Below are positions 1 to 6,668 of a stretch of DNA of 64,000 bases, piece after piece. The stretch spans positions 1 through 64,000 of the forward strand of contig DASRER010000006.1 in assembly GCA_035651995.1 (NCBI GenBank), in the 5' to 3' direction. Numbering within the stretch: the stretch's first letter is position 1; every line of letters starts with the position of its first letter. The notes under the pieces were generated by a model, which was not told the DNA's origin, did not search any database, and was given only the letters and a program-made list of their open reading frames with translations. The stretch is from Terriglobales bacterium. Its GTDB lineage: Bacteria; Acidobacteriota; Terriglobia; Terriglobales; Acidobacteriaceae. Made by a program: the position numbers and the translations under genes.

Positions 1-224
1 CCGACGAACCCGACCGATGGTGTGCTTTGTGAACGTCAAAAGCGTGGACCGAATCATCTACTCCATTTTCCAGAGATTTACCCTGGAATGGAAAACCCGC
101 ACCCTCAAGCTATTTACACAAGCCGCGTGACATCACCCAGCCTGGCCGCCAAGTTGACACGATCAAACTCGAAGCGTAGATTCCATGTCCCGGCCGAGTT
201 TGGGCCGCGATCTTTTCCAATTCA
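1..224. other. Upstream flank without a recognisable gene
   Basis: No open frame here resembles a known protein. The short frames that cross this stretch run into the riboswitch and have no ribosome binding site. The segment probably holds the promoter for the cobalamin riboswitch transcript, but I cannot point to convincing -35 and -10 boxes. Confidence 0.4.
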
Positions 225-225
225 C

Positions 226-400
226 TGATGCGTGCGTTCTGCGCCATCGCGGCGCAGGACTGGGAAGCGGGTGCAAATCCCGCGCTGCCGCGCAACTGTA
301 AGGCGGCCCGGCGCAAGCCGGGCAGGCGGAGGGCCACTGCGACAACCGTCGCGGGAAGGCCGCCGCAAGCTTCATTCGCCAAGCCAGGAGACCGGCTCGC
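226..400 (+). promoter_or_regulatory. Cobalamin (B12) riboswitch
   Basis: The sequence carries the signature of the cobalamin riboswitch aptamer: a GGGAAGCGGGTGCAAATCC-type core around 271-290, the GCCGCGCAACTGTA element ending near 300, and the B12 box AAGCCAGGAGACCGGC at 381-396. Spacing and order fit the family. It lies directly upstream of a TonB-dependent receptor gene whose ribosome binding site is at 431-436. By family knowledge, adenosylcobalamin binding represses expression, here probably by occluding that site, because no terminator with a T-tract is visible between the B12 box and the start codon. Confidence 0.93.
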
Positions 401-442
401 ATCGCAAGTCGCAACCCCTTTCGCGTGCAAAGGAGGAAAGCC

Positions 443-2635
443 GTGCGGTGTCGCTTTCTCGTTTTTTCTTTTCTCTTCAGTTTGATCTGGTCCGCTACCG
501 TGGCGCAGGCGCGCGCTTCCACGGCGCTACGCATCAGCGTGGTTGATCCGCAGGACGCCGTCGTTGTCGGAGCGCGCGTGACCCTGATGCAGGGCGCGCG
601 TGTTGTGGAAGTGCAGACAACGTCGGCCGAAGGCGTGGCTGTGTTTGCCGCTTCCGGAGACGGCGTGCAGGTCTTCGCGCCGGGATTCGCTCCGGCTTCG
701 GCGGCACTGGCGCAGTCCGGTGAGGCATCAACGCGAGTGAAGCTCGCGGTCGCCGCGGCGCCGCAAACCGTGGTCGCGAGCGCCGTGCTCACTCCGGTGG
801 CGCAGGAAGAGACCGGAACGGCAGTGGCCGCGCTCGGCCGCGGCGACCTGCTGGCCATGCAGCCGCTCGGGTTGAACGAAGCACTGCGCTTTCTGCCCGG
901 CGCCGTGGTGAGCACGGCGGGGCAGCGCGGCGGACAGGCCAGCCTGTTCGCGCGCGGCGGCGAATCGCGCTACAACAAGGTGATCGTTGACGGCGTGCCC
1001 ATCAACAACGACGACGGCTTTTTCGACTTCGGCGTCATTCCCCCGCAGGAGCTGGAACGGGTGGAGCTGCTGCGCGGCCCGCAGAGTACGCTCTACGGCT
1101 CCGACGCGATGAGCAGCGTGGTGCAGCTCTGGTCGGCGACGGGCCGGACGCGCACCCCCGAGCTGCGCTTCGGCGCCGATGGCGGGAACTTTGCCACGGC
1201 GCACGGATACGCCAGCCTCGCGGGTGCGCGCGGGCGCTTTGACTACGACCTGTTCGGCGACCAGGTGAACACCGACGGCGACGGCGTCAACGCCGCCTAT
1301 TCGAATTCGTCCGAGGGCGCGAACGTGGGCGTGGCGATCTCGCCGCGGATGCTGTGGCGCACGCGGGTGCGGCACCTGAACAGCCGCGCCGGCGCGCAGA
1401 ATGCGTGGAAGTTCAACGGCGTGCCGCTGCTTCCACCCGACAGCGACCAGGTGGCGCGCCAGAACAGCCTGATTGCGAGCACTGAGCTCGCCATCAACGG
1501 ACCGGGACCGTGGCAGCACCGGCTGACCGGCTACGAGTACAGCCATCGGCTGGCGAACGTGGACCTGGTCCCGGACCGCGGCTGCGATTTTGCCCAGTTC
1601 ATCTTCCGCGACTGCCCGTTCGATTCCCGCATCAACCTGAACCGCGCGGGAGTGGATTACCAGGGTGAGTACACACCGCGCGGCTGGTCGCGCACCACCT
1701 TCGGTTACGGATTCGAGGACGAACACGGCGACACTCGCAGCCTGCTCTCGGGCGCGGTGGCGAGCGGGCTGCGCCGCAATCATGCGCTGTACGTGGAGCA
1801 TCTCTTCCTGCTGCCGCGCGGCTCGCTCACGGCCGGCGCCCGTTACGTGCACAACGAGAGCTTCGGCAGCAAGGGCGTTCCGCGCGTTGCGGGAACGTAT
1901 CTGGCGCGGCGCGGCAAGGAGAGAATCGGCGGCACGCGACTGCGTGGCGCGTTTGCCACCGGCATCAAGGCGCCAAGTTTCCTGGAGTCGTTCGGCGAGC
2001 CGGCATTCAGCATCATTCCGAATCCCAATCTCAAGCCAGAAGAGAACCGTTCGCTTGAAGCGGGCGTGGAGCAGTCGCTTGCGGCCGGGCGCGTGGCCGT
2101 AACGGCGCTATACTTCAACGACCTGTTCCACAACCGCATTGACTTCCAGTCGCTGGGTCCGCCGGCGTTCCAGGCGCGGTTCATCAACATCAACAAGGTC
2201 CTATCTCACGGGGCGGAGTTCGAGGCGCACGCGCGGCTGCGCCCGTCGCTCTCACTGAACGCCGCCTACGACTACACCGCCACGCAGACGCTGGAGGCGC
2301 CGCTGGCGCCTTCGACGATCGGCAAGCCGTTGCTGCGGCGGCCGAAACACCTGGGATCGCTGCTGCTGGTGTACTCGGGGCGGCGCTGGGGCGGGAACCT
2401 GGGCGGAAGTTTTGTCGGCCGGCGTCCGGACAATGATTTTCAGGGCTTCGGCATCGACCACGCCGCCGGCTACGCGCGCGCGGACTTTGGCGGATGGTTC
2501 GCTGTGAGTCGCTACGCCACGGCCTACTTCAACGTGGAGAACGCGCTGAATCGCAACTACAACGAAGTGCTCGGATTTCCGGCGATCGGCGCCAGCTTCC
2601 GCGCCGGCATGCGGTTCCGGGTCGGCGGAGAGTAG
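443..2635 (+). CDS. TonB-dependent outer-membrane receptor, BtuB-like (cobalamin uptake)
   Basis: About 730 residues. An N-terminal signal peptide (hydrophobic FLVFSFLFSLIWS core) precedes a carboxypeptidase-regulatory-like beta-sandwich at roughly 28-100, then the plug domain at about 105-220 (LLRGPQSTLYGSDA is typical plug sequence), then a C-terminal beta-barrel. GTG at 443 is chosen because AGGAGG at 431-436 lies six bases upstream. The in-frame GTG at 425 would place that site inside the gene. Control by the cobalamin riboswitch immediately upstream makes vitamin B12 or another corrinoid the likely substrate, which energised TonB would drive across the outer membrane. The extra N-terminal domain, absent from enterobacterial BtuB, is common in Acidobacteriota and Bacteroidota receptors. 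The substrate is inferred from the riboswitch, not from barrel sequence. Confidence 0.88.
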   Translation: MRCRFLVFSFLFSLIWSATVAQARASTALRISVVDPQDAVVVGARVTLMQGARVVEVQTTSAEGVAVFAASGDGVQVFAPGFAPASAALAQSGEASTRVKLAVAAAPQTVVASAVLTPVAQEETGTAVAALGRGDLLAMQPLGLNEALRFLPGAVVSTAGQRGGQASLFARGGESRYNKVIVDGVPINNDDGFFDFGVIPPQELERVELLRGPQSTLYGSDAMSSVVQLWSATGRTRTPELRFGADGGNFATAHGYASLAGARGRFDYDLFGDQVNTDGDGVNAAYSNSSEGANVGVAISPRMLWRTRVRHLNSRAGAQNAWKFNGVPLLPPDSDQVARQNSLIASTELAINGPGPWQHRLTGYEYSHRLANVDLVPDRGCDFAQFIFRDCPFDSRINLNRAGVDYQGEYTPRGWSRTTFGYGFEDEHGDTRSLLSGAVASGLRRNHALYVEHLFLLPRGSLTAGARYVHNESFGSKGVPRVAGTYLARRGKERIGGTRLRGAFATGIKAPSFLESFGEPAFSIIPNPNLKPEENRSLEAGVEQSLAAGRVAVTALYFNDLFHNRIDFQSLGPPAFQARFININKVLSHGAEFEAHARLRPSLSLNAAYDYTATQTLEAPLAPSTIGKPLLRRPKHLGSLLLVYSGRRWGGNLGGSFVGRRPDNDFQGFGIDHAAGYARADFGGWFAVSRYATAYFNVENALNRNYNEVLGFPAIGASFRAGMRFRVGGE

Positions 2636-2654
2636 GGCTGAGTGGCTTCATCAC

Positions 2655-2741
2655 GGCTGGCAATCAGAAAAGAGCAATCCCCCAGGGGCTGAAGCGCGCA
2701 TTGCTGGCGGCTTGAAACGGCGCGGCCGGAAGCCGCGCCCC
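2655..2741. repeat. Intergenic hairpin element between the receptor and the membrane gene
   Basis: The 145-bp gap after the receptor holds a perfect hairpin, GGCGCGGC at 2719-2726 with GCCGCGCC at 2732-2739, preceded by a smaller CCCCCAGGGG-type palindrome. No T-tract follows, so a strong rho-independent terminator is unlikely. It may reduce or process the transcript between the receptor and the downstream genes. Confidence 0.4.
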
Positions 2742-2780
2742 TTCCAAGCGTTTTGTGAACCGACTCAAAGGAGGCAGGCG

Positions 2781-3347
2781 ATGGCTGCGACCACGGACGC
2801 GAACGGGAAGACAGGCCAGCCGCTGGGGATCGGGCTGGTGGTGATGAGCGTGGCGGCGCGGCTGCTGCCGCATCCGCCGAACTTCACGCCTGTCGGCGGC
2901 AGCGCACTGCTGGCGGGCGCGCGGCTGCGCGGATGGCGAGCTTGGCTGGCGCCCCTGGCGGCCATGGCCATCAGCGATCCGATCATCAACTGGGGTTACG
3001 GGCTGCGGCCGTATGGACGCGGCACGGTGTTCATCTACGCCAGCTTTCTGCTGAACGTGGTGATCGGGAGGCTGTGGCTGCGCGCGAGCGAGAACGCCTG
3101 GCGGATCGGCGCGGCGGCGCTGGCAGGCAGCGCGCAGTTTTTCCTGATCAGCAACTTTCCGGTGTGGCTGTTCGGGACGCGCTATCCGCATACCTGGGCG
3201 GGACTGATCGGGTGCTACGTGGCGGCGATTCCGTTCTTCGGCGGGACGGTGCTCGGCGATCTGTTCTGGAGCGGAGCGCTGTTCGGCTTACATGCGTGGC
3301 TCAGCCGTCGCGCATTTCCCGCCGAGCGCGTGGGGGCGGCCGCGTGA
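2781..3347 (+). CDS. DUF6580-type integral membrane protein, possible corrinoid transporter component
   Basis: 188 residues with about five hydrophobic segments (for example around LGIGLVVMSVAARLL, WLAPLAAMAIS, VFIYASFLLNVVIG, AALAGSAQFFLIS and GCYVAAIPFFGG). The conserved pattern PPNFTPVGGSALLAGAR near the N-terminus and the NFPVWLFG and YPHTWAGLIGCY segments fit my memory of the DUF6580 family, described as putative transport proteins. ATG at 2781 follows AAAGGAGG at 2767-2774. It sits between a riboswitch-controlled TonB-dependent receptor and a Dph6-related ATP pyrophosphatase gene, so a role in moving corrinoid through the inner membrane, like the S-components of ECF transporters or BtuM, is plausible. 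That function is inferred from neighbourhood only. Confidence 0.72.
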   Translation: MAATTDANGKTGQPLGIGLVVMSVAARLLPHPPNFTPVGGSALLAGARLRGWRAWLAPLAAMAISDPIINWGYGLRPYGRGTVFIYASFLLNVVIGRLWLRASENAWRIGAAALAGSAQFFLISNFPVWLFGTRYPHTWAGLIGCYVAAIPFFGGTVLGDLFWSGALFGLHAWLSRRAFPAERVGAAA

Positions 3348-3363
3348 ACCACAGGTTGGGCGC

Positions 3364-4044
3364 GTGAAGCGCGTTTTGCTTTCCTGGAGCAGCGGCAAGG
3401 ACAGCGCCTGGGCGCTGCACGCGCTGCGGCAACGCGCTGACGTCGAAGTCGTCGGGCTGCTCACCACCATTAATGCCGAAGCCGACCGCGTGGCCATGCA
3501 TGCGGTGCGGCGCGAGCTGGTAGAAGCGCAGGCGCGCGCCGCGGGACTGCCGCTGACCACGCTCCCGCTGCCGTGGCCTTGTCCCAACGCCGAATACGAG
3601 CGGCGGATGCGGCGGGCGTGCGAGGAGGCGCGCGAGCGCGGCGCGGAAGCGGTCGCGTTCGGCGACCTGTTTTTGCAGGACGTGCGCGCTTACCGCGAGC
3701 GCCAGCTCGCAGGCACGGGCCTGGGGTCGCTGTTTCCGCTGTGGGGATTGCCGACCGCCGAGCTTGCGCGCGAGATGATCACTAGCGGGCTGCGTGCGCG
3801 CCTTACGTGCGTGGACACGCGCGTCCTGCCGGCTGAGTTCGCCGGCCGCGAGTTCGACGAGGCGTTGCTGCGCGACCTTCCCTCCAGGACCGATCCCTGC
3901 GGCGAAAAGGGCGAGTTCCACAGCTTCTGTCACGCCGGGCCGATGTTCCCGGAGGCCATTCCGGTGGAAGGGGGCGAGGTGATCGTGCGCGATGGTTTCG
4001 CGTTCGCGGACTTGAAGATCGCGGGCCGCCTGGAAAAGCCTTAG
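3364..4044 (+). CDS. Dph6-related ATP pyrophosphatase (PP-loop, MJ0570 type)
   Basis: 226 residues. The N-terminus carries the PP-loop SWSSGKDS (residues 7-14) of the adenine-nucleotide alpha-hydrolase fold. The remainder (EAVAFGDLFLQDVRAYRE, then LFPLWG and the GEFHSFC motif) matches the diphthine-ammonia ligase/MJ0570 family. Bacteria lack diphthamide, so the bacterial members do something else. They activate an unknown substrate by adenylation. The GTG at 3364 is 16 bp after the upstream stop, giving a tight operon with the DUF6580 and riboswitch-controlled receptor genes. Co-location suggests a task in corrinoid remodelling or amidation, which is inference. The gene faces the convergent secreted-protein gene 33 bp away. 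Confidence 0.8.
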   Translation: MKRVLLSWSSGKDSAWALHALRQRADVEVVGLLTTINAEADRVAMHAVRRELVEAQARAAGLPLTTLPLPWPCPNAEYERRMRRACEEARERGAEAVAFGDLFLQDVRAYRERQLAGTGLGSLFPLWGLPTAELAREMITSGLRARLTCVDTRVLPAEFAGREFDEALLRDLPSRTDPCGEKGEFHSFCHAGPMFPEAIPVEGGEVIVRDGFAFADLKIAGRLEKP

Positions 4045-4077
4045 CAAGCTGCGTCTCTACGTTGGTTGGGCGGAGTT

Positions 4078-4950
4078 TCAGTTCCCCGACGCAGCTGAGG
4101 CGGCTGCGCGCAGCCCGCTCACTTCGGCTTCGGTGCCGGGGACGGGACGGGCCTCGTAGTCGCGGTAGGTGATGTCCACCACTGCCTTGCCCACCAGGCG
4201 GGTGCTCGCCGAGGAATGCGTGCGTACCGGCAGGACGAAGCCGGCCACGTCAGCGTAGTCCTGCACGAACTCGATCTTCTTCACGAACCAGGAGGGCGAC
4301 TTCACCAGCGTGCCTTCGGCGCGGCGCAGCGCGCCGGTTGCCGCGTCGAGGTAGACGCGCCCTTTGAACAGGCCGGGCACTTTGTGCCGCGGCTTGAGCT
4401 GAAAGACGTGCACCGCCACGCCGTCGATTTTTTCCACGCCCTTGTAGCTGAATTTGTAGTTCTGGTTGCTGATGGCCGTCGAGGCGGGATCGTTCTTTTC
4501 GACGTGGTCAACCTCGGATTGCAGCAGGCGGTTGATCACGTTGGTCTTAACGAATCCGTCGCCGGTGAACTGAATGGGAGTGAACTTGAGCTCGCGCGGC
4601 GCAGTGTAGTTGCGGCGCAGCTGGAACGTGCCCTGCTGGCGGGTGTCGGGCAGTTGCGCGGCGATTTCAGTGACGGATGCGAGCGAGGCGAGGTCGGCGG
4701 ACTGGACCTGGGCGCGCCTGTGGAAGGTGGCCAGGGCCAGTTCAGGCGACATGCGCGGCAGCGCGGCCGAGCTTGGCATCACCGCCGGCAGCGCCTGCTG
4801 CGGCGCGGCTTCGATGAGCTGCGGCATGGCCGGGCCGCCGGCGGAGGCTTCAGCGACGGTTGCGGCGGCAAAATTGAACGATTGCCCGCATACCGGCGCG
4901 GCCGCCCCGAGCGCGCTGCACGCCGTCAAAATGATGGCCAAATGCCTCAT
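4078..4950 (-). CDS. Secreted protein with a LolA/outer-membrane-lipoprotein-sorting-like fold
   Basis: 290 residues with a clear signal peptide (LAIILTACSALGAAAPVCG) and a low-complexity Ala/Pro linker to about residue 65. The C-terminal 190 residues contain RRNYTAPRELKFTPIQFTGDGF, YKFSYKGVEKIDG, VHVFQLKPRHKVPGLFKGRVYLD and a final strand pattern. Alternating 'Y-x-F-x-Y-x-G-x-x-x-I-D-G-x-x-V-x-V-F-x-L' strands resemble the beta-rich LolA/LolB-like proteins that acidobacterial genomes encode in number. No lipobox is evident, so it is probably periplasmic. Start ATG at 4950. It is divergent from thyX, with 116 bp between. The fold call is by pattern only. Confidence 0.65.
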   Translation of the reverse strand: MRHLAIILTACSALGAAAPVCGQSFNFAAATVAEASAGGPAMPQLIEAAPQQALPAVMPSSAALPRMSPELALATFHRRAQVQSADLASLASVTEIAAQLPDTRQQGTFQLRRNYTAPRELKFTPIQFTGDGFVKTNVINRLLQSEVDHVEKNDPASTAISNQNYKFSYKGVEKIDGVAVHVFQLKPRHKVPGLFKGRVYLDAATGALRRAEGTLVKSPSWFVKKIEFVQDYADVAGFVLPVRTHSSASTRLVGKAVVDITYRDYEARPVPGTEAEVSGLRAAASAASGN

Positions 4951-5066
4951 GAATGCCTGATCGGCAATCCTTCTCTTATATGCGACCCGCCAGACCCTGA
5001 AAAGTGACGGAGGTAATGCCTCCGTTGCCGTTCGACCGCAGGCGGCAGTAGGATGGCCTTCCCGTC

Positions 5067-6668
5067 ATGGCCGGCAACGTCAGCGAAAAAGATCGCGCGA
5101 ATCCCGCTTTCACTGCTTCGAACCAAGATGCAGGCGAGTCCGCGCCCGATTCTTTATCCGAAACCGACGTCTTCGCCGTGTTCGGCGCCGAACCCGAGGT
5201 GCAGGCCTACGCGATGGCCAAGTACTCGCGGTCGGCGCTTTCGATGAAGGAGTCCCTGAAAGAAATAAACGACCAGAAGGCGGAAAAGTTCCTCAATACC
5301 TTCTACTTTCAGTACGGGCACCGCTCCATTGCCGACCTGGCGCACGTGGCGCTGGCCATCGAGCGGCTGACGATCCTGGCGGCCATCATCCTGGTGGACG
5401 AGCAGCGCTGGGACGGCCAGGAGCGCTCCACCCGCTATCAGGACTTCAGGAAGTCCGGCTATTACACGCCCGATTTCGGCGGGGATGCGGCGGCGGCGCG
5501 GCTCTATCGCGAGACGGCCGACTTTCTCTTCGCCGAGTACGAGTGGCTCGGCGGGGCGATGTTCGACTACCTGGCCGCGCGCACGCCCAAGCCCGCCGAG
5601 ATGAAACAGGAGGCGTACGAGCGCACGCTGCGCGCCCGCGCCTTCGACTTTGCCCGCTACCTGCTGCCCATGGCGACCAACACGTCGCTGGGGCAGATCG
5701 TGAACGCGCGCACGCTGGAGACGCAGGTGGCGCGGCTGCTGTCGAGTCCGTACGGCGAAGTGAGGCGCCTGGGCGAGAAGCTGAAATCAGCCGCGCGCGA
5801 GGCCGCATGGAATGTTAACCGCGACCGCCTGGCTGCTCTCGTCGAAGAAATTCGCGCTCTCGATCCGGCGCTCGGCGCGCGCGCCGGGCAGGAGCTGCTC
5901 AAAGACGTCCGCGTGGCGCCCACGCTGGTCAAGTACGCCGAGACGAATCGGTATCGCCAGGAAACCGAGCGCGAGATGACGCAGCTGGCGCGCGAGCTGC
6001 TCGCCGGACAAAAGATCGAGAGCGCGCCGCCGGTTGACCTGCTGGAAGACGAGCCGGTGGAGATCGAGCTGGCGGCGACGCTGCTGTACGAGTTCTGCGC
6101 GCACCCTTACCGCCAGGTGCGCCGCGTCGTCGAGGGCCTGCCCGGCGCTGGCCGCAAAGAAATCGTCGCGATGGGCACGCGCCATCGCAGTCGCCACGAC
6201 GAGCTGCTGCGCGCGTTCTCGGCAGGGCAGAGGTTCCGCTTCGACATCCTCATGGACCTGGGCGGCTTTCGCGACATGCATCGTCACCGCCGCTGCGTGC
6301 AGATTTCGCAGCCCTTCACCGCCGCACATGGACACGACACGCCCGCCGAGATTCCGGACGCGGGCCACGGCACGCGCTACGCCGCCGCGATGCGGCGCGC
6401 GGCAGGCGCCGTGCAGTCACTCGCCCAAAGAGAGGACCACGCGGGGGACTACCTCTTGCCGCTCGGCGTCCGCCATCGCACGCTGTTCAAGATGGACCTG
6501 GCCGAAGCCGTGTACATCTCAGAGCTCCGCACCGGCCCCGCGGGACACTTCTCGTATCGCAACGTGGCGTACGGGATGTACGAGGCGGTGGCGAAGCGGC
6601 ATCCGGAGCTGGCGGGGTTGTTCCGGGTGACGGATGTGAACGAGCCGGTGGATTTGCTGAAGCGATGA
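5067..6668 (+). CDS. thyX: FAD-dependent thymidylate synthase, tandem-domain ThyX
   Basis: 533 residues, about twice a typical ThyX, because two ThyX-like halves follow one another. The first half has GHRSIADLAHVALAIERL (84-101) and QERSTRYQDF (118-127), the places where classical ThyX has its helix and its S-x-x-S-x-R-Y segment. The second half has FRDMHRHRRC, with RHR at 406-408, and ends with an SYRN-type motif. ThyX makes dTMP from dUMP using methylene-tetrahydrofolate, NADPH and FAD. In these double-length proteins the active site is probably built from both halves, since neither carries a perfect RHR-x7-S motif. The ATG at 5067 is preferred over the out-of-frame ATG at 5053. A small hairpin (5007-5025) lies in the leader. 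Confidence 0.78.
   Translation: MAGNVSEKDRANPAFTASNQDAGESAPDSLSETDVFAVFGAEPEVQAYAMAKYSRSALSMKESLKEINDQKAEKFLNTFYFQYGHRSIADLAHVALAIERLTILAAIILVDEQRWDGQERSTRYQDFRKSGYYTPDFGGDAAAARLYRETADFLFAEYEWLGGAMFDYLAARTPKPAEMKQEAYERTLRARAFDFARYLLPMATNTSLGQIVNARTLETQVARLLSSPYGEVRRLGEKLKSAAREAAWNVNRDRLAALVEEIRALDPALGARAGQELLKDVRVAPTLVKYAETNRYRQETEREMTQLARELLAGQKIESAPPVDLLEDEPVEIELAATLLYEFCAHPYRQVRRVVEGLPGAGRKEIVAMGTRHRSRHDELLRAFSAGQRFRFDILMDLGGFRDMHRHRRCVQISQPFTAAHGHDTPAEIPDAGHGTRYAAAMRRAAGAVQSLAQREDHAGDYLLPLGVRHRTLFKMDLAEAVYISELRTGPAGHFSYRNVAYGMYEAVAKRHPELAGLFRVTDVNEPVDLLKR

Follow-up and report, generated by a model that had tools for sequence, protein, structure and literature searches.

A cobalamin riboswitch operon in a Terriglobales bacterium points to DUF6580 as a candidate corrinoid permease

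Results

A riboswitch, a receptor gene, DUF6580 and a PP-loop gene on one strand

The DNA analysed here (the window) comprises the first 64,000 nucleotides of contig DASRER010000006.1 (C6) of a Terriglobales bacterium, whose genome assembly (GCA_035651995.1, G000) measures 3.66 Mb and is 99.35% complete. Close to its start, a cobalamin riboswitch precedes genes for a BtuB-type receptor, a membrane protein of the DUF6580 family and a PP-loop ATP pyrophosphatase. This study concerns the part that DUF6580, a probable corrinoid permease, plays in this unit. The riboswitch aptamer occupies positions 215-414 (+ strand) and matches the full RF00174 model (1-189) at E 8.8e-23, scoring 96.4 bits where 31.5 are needed for gathering. 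Its B12 box lies at 381-396, and it is the single RF00174 match in the whole genome. The receptor gene follows at 443-2635, the DUF6580 gene at 2781-3347 (PF20221, E 9.9e-47; 159.6 bits against a gathering score of 27) and the PP-loop gene, with an SSGKDS loop and a CGEKGEFH motif, at 3364-4044 (PF01902, E 2.4e-26), all on the + strand. The Rfam and Pfam matches thus bear out the gene order proposed in the first-pass annotation, which had been made from the letters alone.

The receptor reading frame matches the Pfam domains Plug and TonB_dep_Rec and has a signal-like N-terminus. Among NCBIfam models TIGR01779 (TonB-B12) fits it best (E 5.7e-42), at 144 bits versus an equivalog cut-off of 599.7 for BtuB; because of this shortfall, "BtuB-type" is a name given from context. 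Given the Shine-Dalgarno-like AGGAGG at 431-436, the GTG at 443 is a more likely start than position 425. A second Shine-Dalgarno-like stretch, AAAGGAGG, lies ahead of DUF6580. The DUF6580 gene begins after a 145-nt gap behind the receptor gene and is separated from the PP-loop gene by 16 nt, and we infer that riboswitch and genes are co-transcribed. A scan of positions 1-5200 reported no terminator-like site in the 145-nt gap. Its + strand sites fall at 191-207, 620-636, 3117-3133, 3651-3667 and, weakly, at the PP-loop gene start (3362-3374). A weak sigma-70-like promoter candidate (TTGACA-17-TAGATT) lies at 154-182 on the + strand, one being seen versus 0.3 expected in shuffles. As the seven terminator sites on both strands compare with 5.1 in shuffles, the promoter and terminator scan was dropped as uninformative.

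The host appears to need cobamides, and searches found no BtuC-type permease or CbiB

Five B12-binding domain matches were found in the genome. The methylmalonyl-CoA mutase C-domain (TIGR00640) scores 181 bits, above its cut-off of 57, and methionine synthase MetH (TIGR02082) reaches 964.9 bits versus 1010.85 at a locus that is cut at its end. No match to FecCD, the BtuC-type permease, was obtained genome-wide; 13 of the 14 control genomes gave one in the same search. Nor did the genome yield a match to CbiB or to EcfT/CbiQ (PF02361). In the near-relative set of 61 genomes, EcfT went undetected in 57, the window's among them. The organism thus seems to require adenosyl- and methyl-cobamide without possessing a BtuC-type permease or CbiB, and since the searches disclosed no CbiB, FecCD or EcfT route, corrinoid must enter by some other importer. 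The first-pass annotation had noted the lack of a BtuCDF-type transporter; genome-wide this holds for BtuC, the component that the search covered. A second DUF6580 gene is present on contig C26.

DUF6580 lies behind cobalamin riboswitches in many phyla

Contigs were searched with an alignment of 15 DUF6580 proteins, and the best 80 of at least 590 relatives were kept as loci. Selection was by protein similarity alone, the riboswitch not being a criterion, and the set leans to window-type DUF6580. Riboswitches were sought with R1, a covariance model for which 27 riboswitches, from relatives and from the window, served as source. R1 recovered the known riboswitches of control loci, and it finds that of the window at 254-393 (85.7 bits), its core being among the 27 source sequences. 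R1 E-values are rough; at E<=1 the 80 loci (0.99 Mb) gave 59 matches, of which 55 were used. By the rate in the 61 near relatives (75 riboswitches in about 241 Mb, scanned with stricter filters than the 80 loci), 0.31 would be expected. All but one of the 55 share the strand of DUF6580. Matches occur in 44 of the 80 loci and lie upstream of DUF6580, on its strand, in 40; the distance to the gene is 600 bases or less in 14 of these 40. The upstream-linked loci represent 12 named phyla plus one SAR324 record. When 14 R1-positive loci were submitted to Rfam, 12 were confirmed at gathering scores, some as adenosylcobalamin (AdoCbl) or AdoCbl-II types; the matches in L141 and L182 and the second one of L161 were not, and four loci without a used R1 match showed no cobalamin riboswitch by Rfam. 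The co-occurrence of DUF6580 with cobalamin riboswitches in other genomes, on which the earlier proposal of a permease had been staked, is therefore found.

Gene neighbourhoods tell a similar story. Within 6.5 kb of DUF6580 (clusters being named from Pfam runs on representatives and chosen genes), 33 of the 80 loci carry a BtuB-like gene, 18 a DUF71 gene, 16 a Peripla_BP_2 gene and 11 a Cob_adeno_trans gene. At least one of these four or a riboswitch (five B12 marks in all) is present in 52 of the 80. A FecCD cluster, assigned by Pfam on representatives only, lies near four. Three loci illustrate the arrangements. An acidobacterial one (L130) reads riboswitch, BtuB, adenosyltransferase, DUF6580, DUF71, BtuF-like. 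In the Arcticibacter locus (L202), riboswitch and BtuB are followed by DUF5074, presumably a BtuG-type propeller, and then by CobT, CobS, a phosphatase and DUF6580. In Levyibacteriota (L161) a ribonucleotide reductase-cluster gene and an AdoCbl-II riboswitch precede DUF4430, DUF6580, adenosyltransferase, CobS and a CobT split in two; we take DUF4430 (PF14478) to resemble the transcobalamin C-terminal domain.

Ribonucleotide reductase and DUF6580 occur together in four Patescibacteria-type loci (by Pfam in L134, L142 and L151, by clustering in L161). An adenosyltransferase is also present in L134, L142 and L161, AdoCbl-II riboswitches in L134 and L161, and a class II ribonucleotide reductase domain or signature in L142. 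We propose that these loci form a compact B12-use module. Patescibacteria are not known to have an outer membrane. Behind the DUF6580-adenosyltransferase pair, L161 (5990-7288) and L134 (9141-10535) encode a protein of 430-460 residues (cluster k63), for which the L161 copy gave no Pfam match. In the Bacteroidota loci L171, L186, L189 and L201 the riboswitch stands immediately ahead of DUF6580, followed by a cluster k10 protein and BtuB. In L189, the scanned one of the four, k10 is a DUF4465 protein with a sorting tail, and the k10 protein is possibly a surface corrinoid binder.

The predicted fold resembles that of BtuM

An AlphaFold2 model of the window DUF6580 protein (mean predicted local distance difference test, pLDDT, 92.3) was compared with solved structures. 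With Foldseek the first Protein Data Bank (PDB) match is BtuM with hydroxocobalamin (TM-score 0.65/0.69, E 0.014). VIA likewise ranks BtuM first (Z 13.2, root-mean-square deviation 3.5 A, 167 aligned residues). Down to rank 20 it lists nothing but S-component entries and, at rank 19, CbiM of a cobalt transporter of the energy-coupling factor (ECF) type; unrelated structures begin at Z 6.2. BtuM again comes first for the L161 model (pLDDT 96.5; Foldseek E 0.12, Z 13.1), which has most alignment rows in common with the window model and is not fully independent of it.

BtuM is described in parts of PMC6072759 as a solitary S-component-type B12 transporter of Thiobacillus denitrificans (PDB 8c7p, 8ovv), in which an invariant loop-3 cysteine, Cys80, ligates cobalt. 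DUF6580 resembles it in size (about 22 kDa), in its predicted S-component fold and in having hosts without BtuC; no ECF module (no PF02361 match) accompanies it in the window host, and, as for BtuM, genes for btuB and adenosyltransferase are found with it, in the 33 and 11 loci mentioned. The two differ in sequence: DUF6580 profiles A3 and A4 gave no match at E<=10 in a search confined to PDB chain sequences, and a loop-3 cysteine (window residues 72-83) is present in none of 81 aligned DUF6580 proteins. They differ also in distribution, BtuM being mostly proteobacterial while riboswitch-linked DUF6580 spans the 12 phyla. Membership of the BtuM family, whose marks also include binding and decyanation of cobalamin, was rejected on the grounds of sequence and the missing cysteine; by analogy, DUF6580 would function like BtuM yet is a separate family.

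The S-components for folate, thiamin, biotin, riboflavin and pantothenate have the fold that is predicted for DUF6580 (Z about 9 to 12.5). They operate with EcfT and ATPases, unlike DUF6580 in the window genome, where EcfT was not found. CbrT is reportedly an ECF S-component for B12; it was not among the fold-table matches of the DUF6580 models. With the ATP-binding cassette importer BtuCDF, DUF6580 has in common the pathway position, riboswitch control and a BtuB partner; the proteins themselves are unrelated. For Caldithrix, B12 uptake is attributed to BtuCDF in a passage of PMC5317091. Our search, with subscription papers and preprints outside it, found no literature naming DUF6580.

Eight residues are invariant in the 81 aligned rows (window numbering): N34, F120, F121, N125, V128, W129, Y135 and G141. 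R27, P30, H31, D66 and G96 are kept in 80 rows and C145 in 72. S-component binding sites usually involve particular loop positions. Because the loop-3 cysteine is absent, the PHxxN motif of loop 1 (His31) becomes a candidate contact; judged by the alignment, a corrinoid would most likely be contacted by this loop and by Cys145 at the top of helix 6. Cys145 as universal cobalt ligand was rejected, being kept in 72 of 81 rows only and lost in the riboswitch-linked L161.

DUF6580 and FecCD are anticorrelated across the phylum but not within the family of the window

Among 247 genomes of the phylum (FecCD scored positive at E<=1e-40), DUF6580 is present in 24 of 35 FecCD-negative versus 6 of 212 FecCD-positive genomes (p 1e-19). 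In the near-relative set, where a call of BtuC required a FecCD match at E<1e-70, so that 11 genomes whose matches were all weaker (E 1e-4 to 1e-12) counted as negative, DUF6580 is lacking in 8 of 12 BtuC-positive versus 4 of 49 BtuC-negative genomes. As main proof this anticorrelation was set aside, since it is driven partly by one family. Outside the family of the window, FecCD is missing in 4 of 8 genomes with DUF6580 versus 5 of 210 without it (p 9e-5).

The last comparison bears on the idea that DUF6580 imports a B12 building block (alpha-ribazole or dimethylbenzimidazole in the manner of CblT, or else cobalt) rather than a whole corrinoid. Parts of PMC8123684 count CblT and several cobalt transporters among B12-pathway transporters, and the CobT and CobS of L202 and L161 are users of lower-ligand precursors. 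The more frequent absence of FecCD where DUF6580 is present argues otherwise, as do the pairing of DUF6580 with a BtuB-like receptor in 33 of 80 loci, BtuM as the closest fold and the need of the window host for a corrinoid importer. Import of a building block is accordingly a quite unlikely role.

Linked and unlinked DUF6580 proteins

Riboswitch linkage elsewhere, gene neighbours, the predicted fold and the absence of BtuC and EcfT together lend strong support to the earlier proposal that DUF6580 is an alternative inner-membrane permease. We consider it likely that the operon serves B12-repressed cobamide import and infer that linked DUF6580 is its corrinoid permease.

The following observations weigh against this interpretation. 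No B12 mark of the five was found in 28 of the 80 loci, in some through contig ends; two of these (L151, L166) have a ribonucleotide reductase or DUF5074-cluster member instead. Linkage is rarer among the near relatives (61 genomes, some incomplete): there, a riboswitch within 5 kb accompanies 5 of 53 DUF6580 genes. A tree of 103 rows (the window copy, the 80 loci and 22 copies of relatives) unites 16 of these 22 in a clade that shows no B12 marks (Shimodaira-Hasegawa-like approximate likelihood ratio test, SH-aLRT, 94), and the second copy of the window genome (L088:2811-3374, G000:C26) falls within it; DUF6580 as a Pfam family may thus not have a single function. Inside the family of the window DUF6580 and FecCD show no anticorrelation (p = 1). 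As to the protein, His31 is replaced by Q in L202 and Cys145 by A in L161. Neither model gave a Foldseek match at E 0.001 or better, and by VIA's rule 4huq_S (Z 12.3 for the window model, 12.5 for L161) ties with BtuM; the modelled fold alone indicates an S-component, not B12 specificity.

The window copy groups with B12-linked acidobacterial copies, those of Bryobacterales among them (SH-aLRT 92, no starred set). The label "B12-linked" requires 21 changes on the tree versus 33.5 in shuffles; linkage is clustered, yet it recurs in many branches. Given the unlinked clade and the rare linkage in near relatives, the corrinoid claim is therefore restricted to the linked kind. Many members of the unlinked clade stand beside YdjM/DAGK genes and some near molybdenum-cofactor genes. 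The C26 copy adjoins genes for YdjM, diacylglycerol kinase, NAD-dependent DNA ligase, VTT and MoaC/MoCF, and N34 is missing in 5 of 11 family copies of its type.

The unlinked clade would also suit a role of DUF6580 as an operon accessory, such as a sensor or assembly factor, with corrinoids using another transporter. S-component folds occur in receptors too, as noted in part of PMC11109136, and four relatives (G018, G034, G051, G055) keep DUF6580 beside a true BtuC-type permease. The failure to find FecCD or EcfT in the window genome speaks against an accessory, and in L202 and L161, whose neighbours are partly annotated, DUF6580 is the sole inner-membrane transporter identified. An accessory role is, in our estimate, very improbable.

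The PP-loop protein belongs to the DUF71-B12 subgroup

Aligned to 3rjz, the window PP-loop protein reads CGEKGEFH where the structure has AGEGGEFE, so that E188 of the Dph6 motif, EGGE/D-x-E188, is replaced by His. The same His is found in all 31 clustered DUF71 proteins, the window's included. The cut-off of the Dph6 diphthine-ammonia ligase model TIGR03679 was missed (68.9 versus 197.3 bits), and on both grounds a Dph6 function was rejected. His for Glu188 marks the DUF71-B12 subgroup (COG2102), which was predicted in 2012 to act in B12 salvage, as stated in portions of PMC3541065. The window protein carries this mark, His for Glu188 in the GE-x-GEF motif, together with a B12 gene neighbourhood. 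The tie of the PP-loop protein to B12 is thus already known; the first-pass annotation, which spoke of bacterial Dph6-like proteins without known substrate, had presented it as newer than it is. Near DUF6580 the association recurs in the 18 loci with DUF71. It is rarer in near relatives, where a riboswitch stands within 5 kb of 4 of the 26 PF01902 genes.

The window protein shares with the published subgroup its PP-loop ATP pyrophosphatase nature, an ENGEF/YH-type motif and adjacent B12 transport genes; it differs in having a solitary permease rather than BtuCDF as partner and a host without CbiB. This difference matters for the role put forward in PMC3541065, namely that DUF71-B12 substitutes for CbiZ, converting imported pseudocobamides to cobyric acid for rebuilding through CbiB. 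There, genomes with CbiB are said to have CbiZ or DUF71-B12, with few exceptions, the two being mutually exclusive in bacteria. The His motif of the window protein also speaks for this role. Against it, reuse of cobyric acid requires CbiB, and no CbiB was found in the 26 PF01902-positive genomes among the 61 (one below the family cut-off, several incomplete), the window's included; the four genomes that do have CbiB lack PF01902. Because CbiB was not found, a CbiZ-like role fits the window host poorly, and we regard it as doubtful. Of the earlier suggestion that the ATPase activates or remodels corrinoids, the link to B12 salvage therefore stands and CbiZ-like remodelling fits poorly. That DUF71-B12 acts on the whole corrinoid, possibly in amide repair, is our conjecture.

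BtuF-family proteins and other neighbouring genes

Fifteen of 24 clustered BtuF-family proteins, adjoining DUF6580 and often DUF71, contain a TQ-C-x-x-C-A motif, mostly together with an HECDYP-like motif (for example L091:4631-5542, L095:809-1729, L128:3274-4134 and L159:8539-9501); the L095 protein matches solved BtuF. In 13 of the 15, no more than about 20 residues separate the start of the protein from the mature-like VSLLPSATE, so close that no signal peptide is possible. The six BtuF-family copies of BtuCD-type loci are without the motif and most have a leader. Judged by sequence, the leaderless proteins are possible cytosolic traps for corrinoid. No BtuF-family gene is present in the window operon.

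Downstream of the operon, the - strand (4078-4950) encodes a secreted-looking protein of 290 residues with a sub-threshold DUF5686 match. It is followed, at 5067-6668, by a reading frame of 533 residues that matches Thy1 (PF02511) in two stretches, an unusually long ThyX-like protein scoring well under the thyX equivalog cut-off.

Discussion

In the scheme that we favour, low intracellular adenosylcobalamin would let the riboswitch permit operon expression, and the TonB-dependent receptor would bring corrinoids into the periplasm. DUF6580, as a solitary, S-component-like protein working without an ECF motor in the manner of BtuM, would then let corrinoid through the inner membrane, probably by facilitated diffusion with trapping inside the cell as the driving pull. 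DUF71-B12 would process the imported corrinoid at the expense of ATP.

A more elaborate version would make this a form of motor-free import distinct from that of BtuM: His31 would contact cobalt, several phyla would add a cytosolic BtuF-like trap and DUF71-B12, and in hosts lacking CbiB the latter would re-amidate hydrolysed side chains, much as Dph6 amidates diphthine. We hold this version to be unlikely.

If linked DUF6580 is indeed a corrinoid permease, one unnamed family would fill the inner-membrane step of B12 uptake in Acidobacteriota, Planctomycetota, Bacteroidota, Levyibacteriota and others. BtuB-bearing genomes without BtuC would become explained B12 users. The family would represent another sequence solution to motor-free S-component transport, beside BtuM and some BioY proteins.

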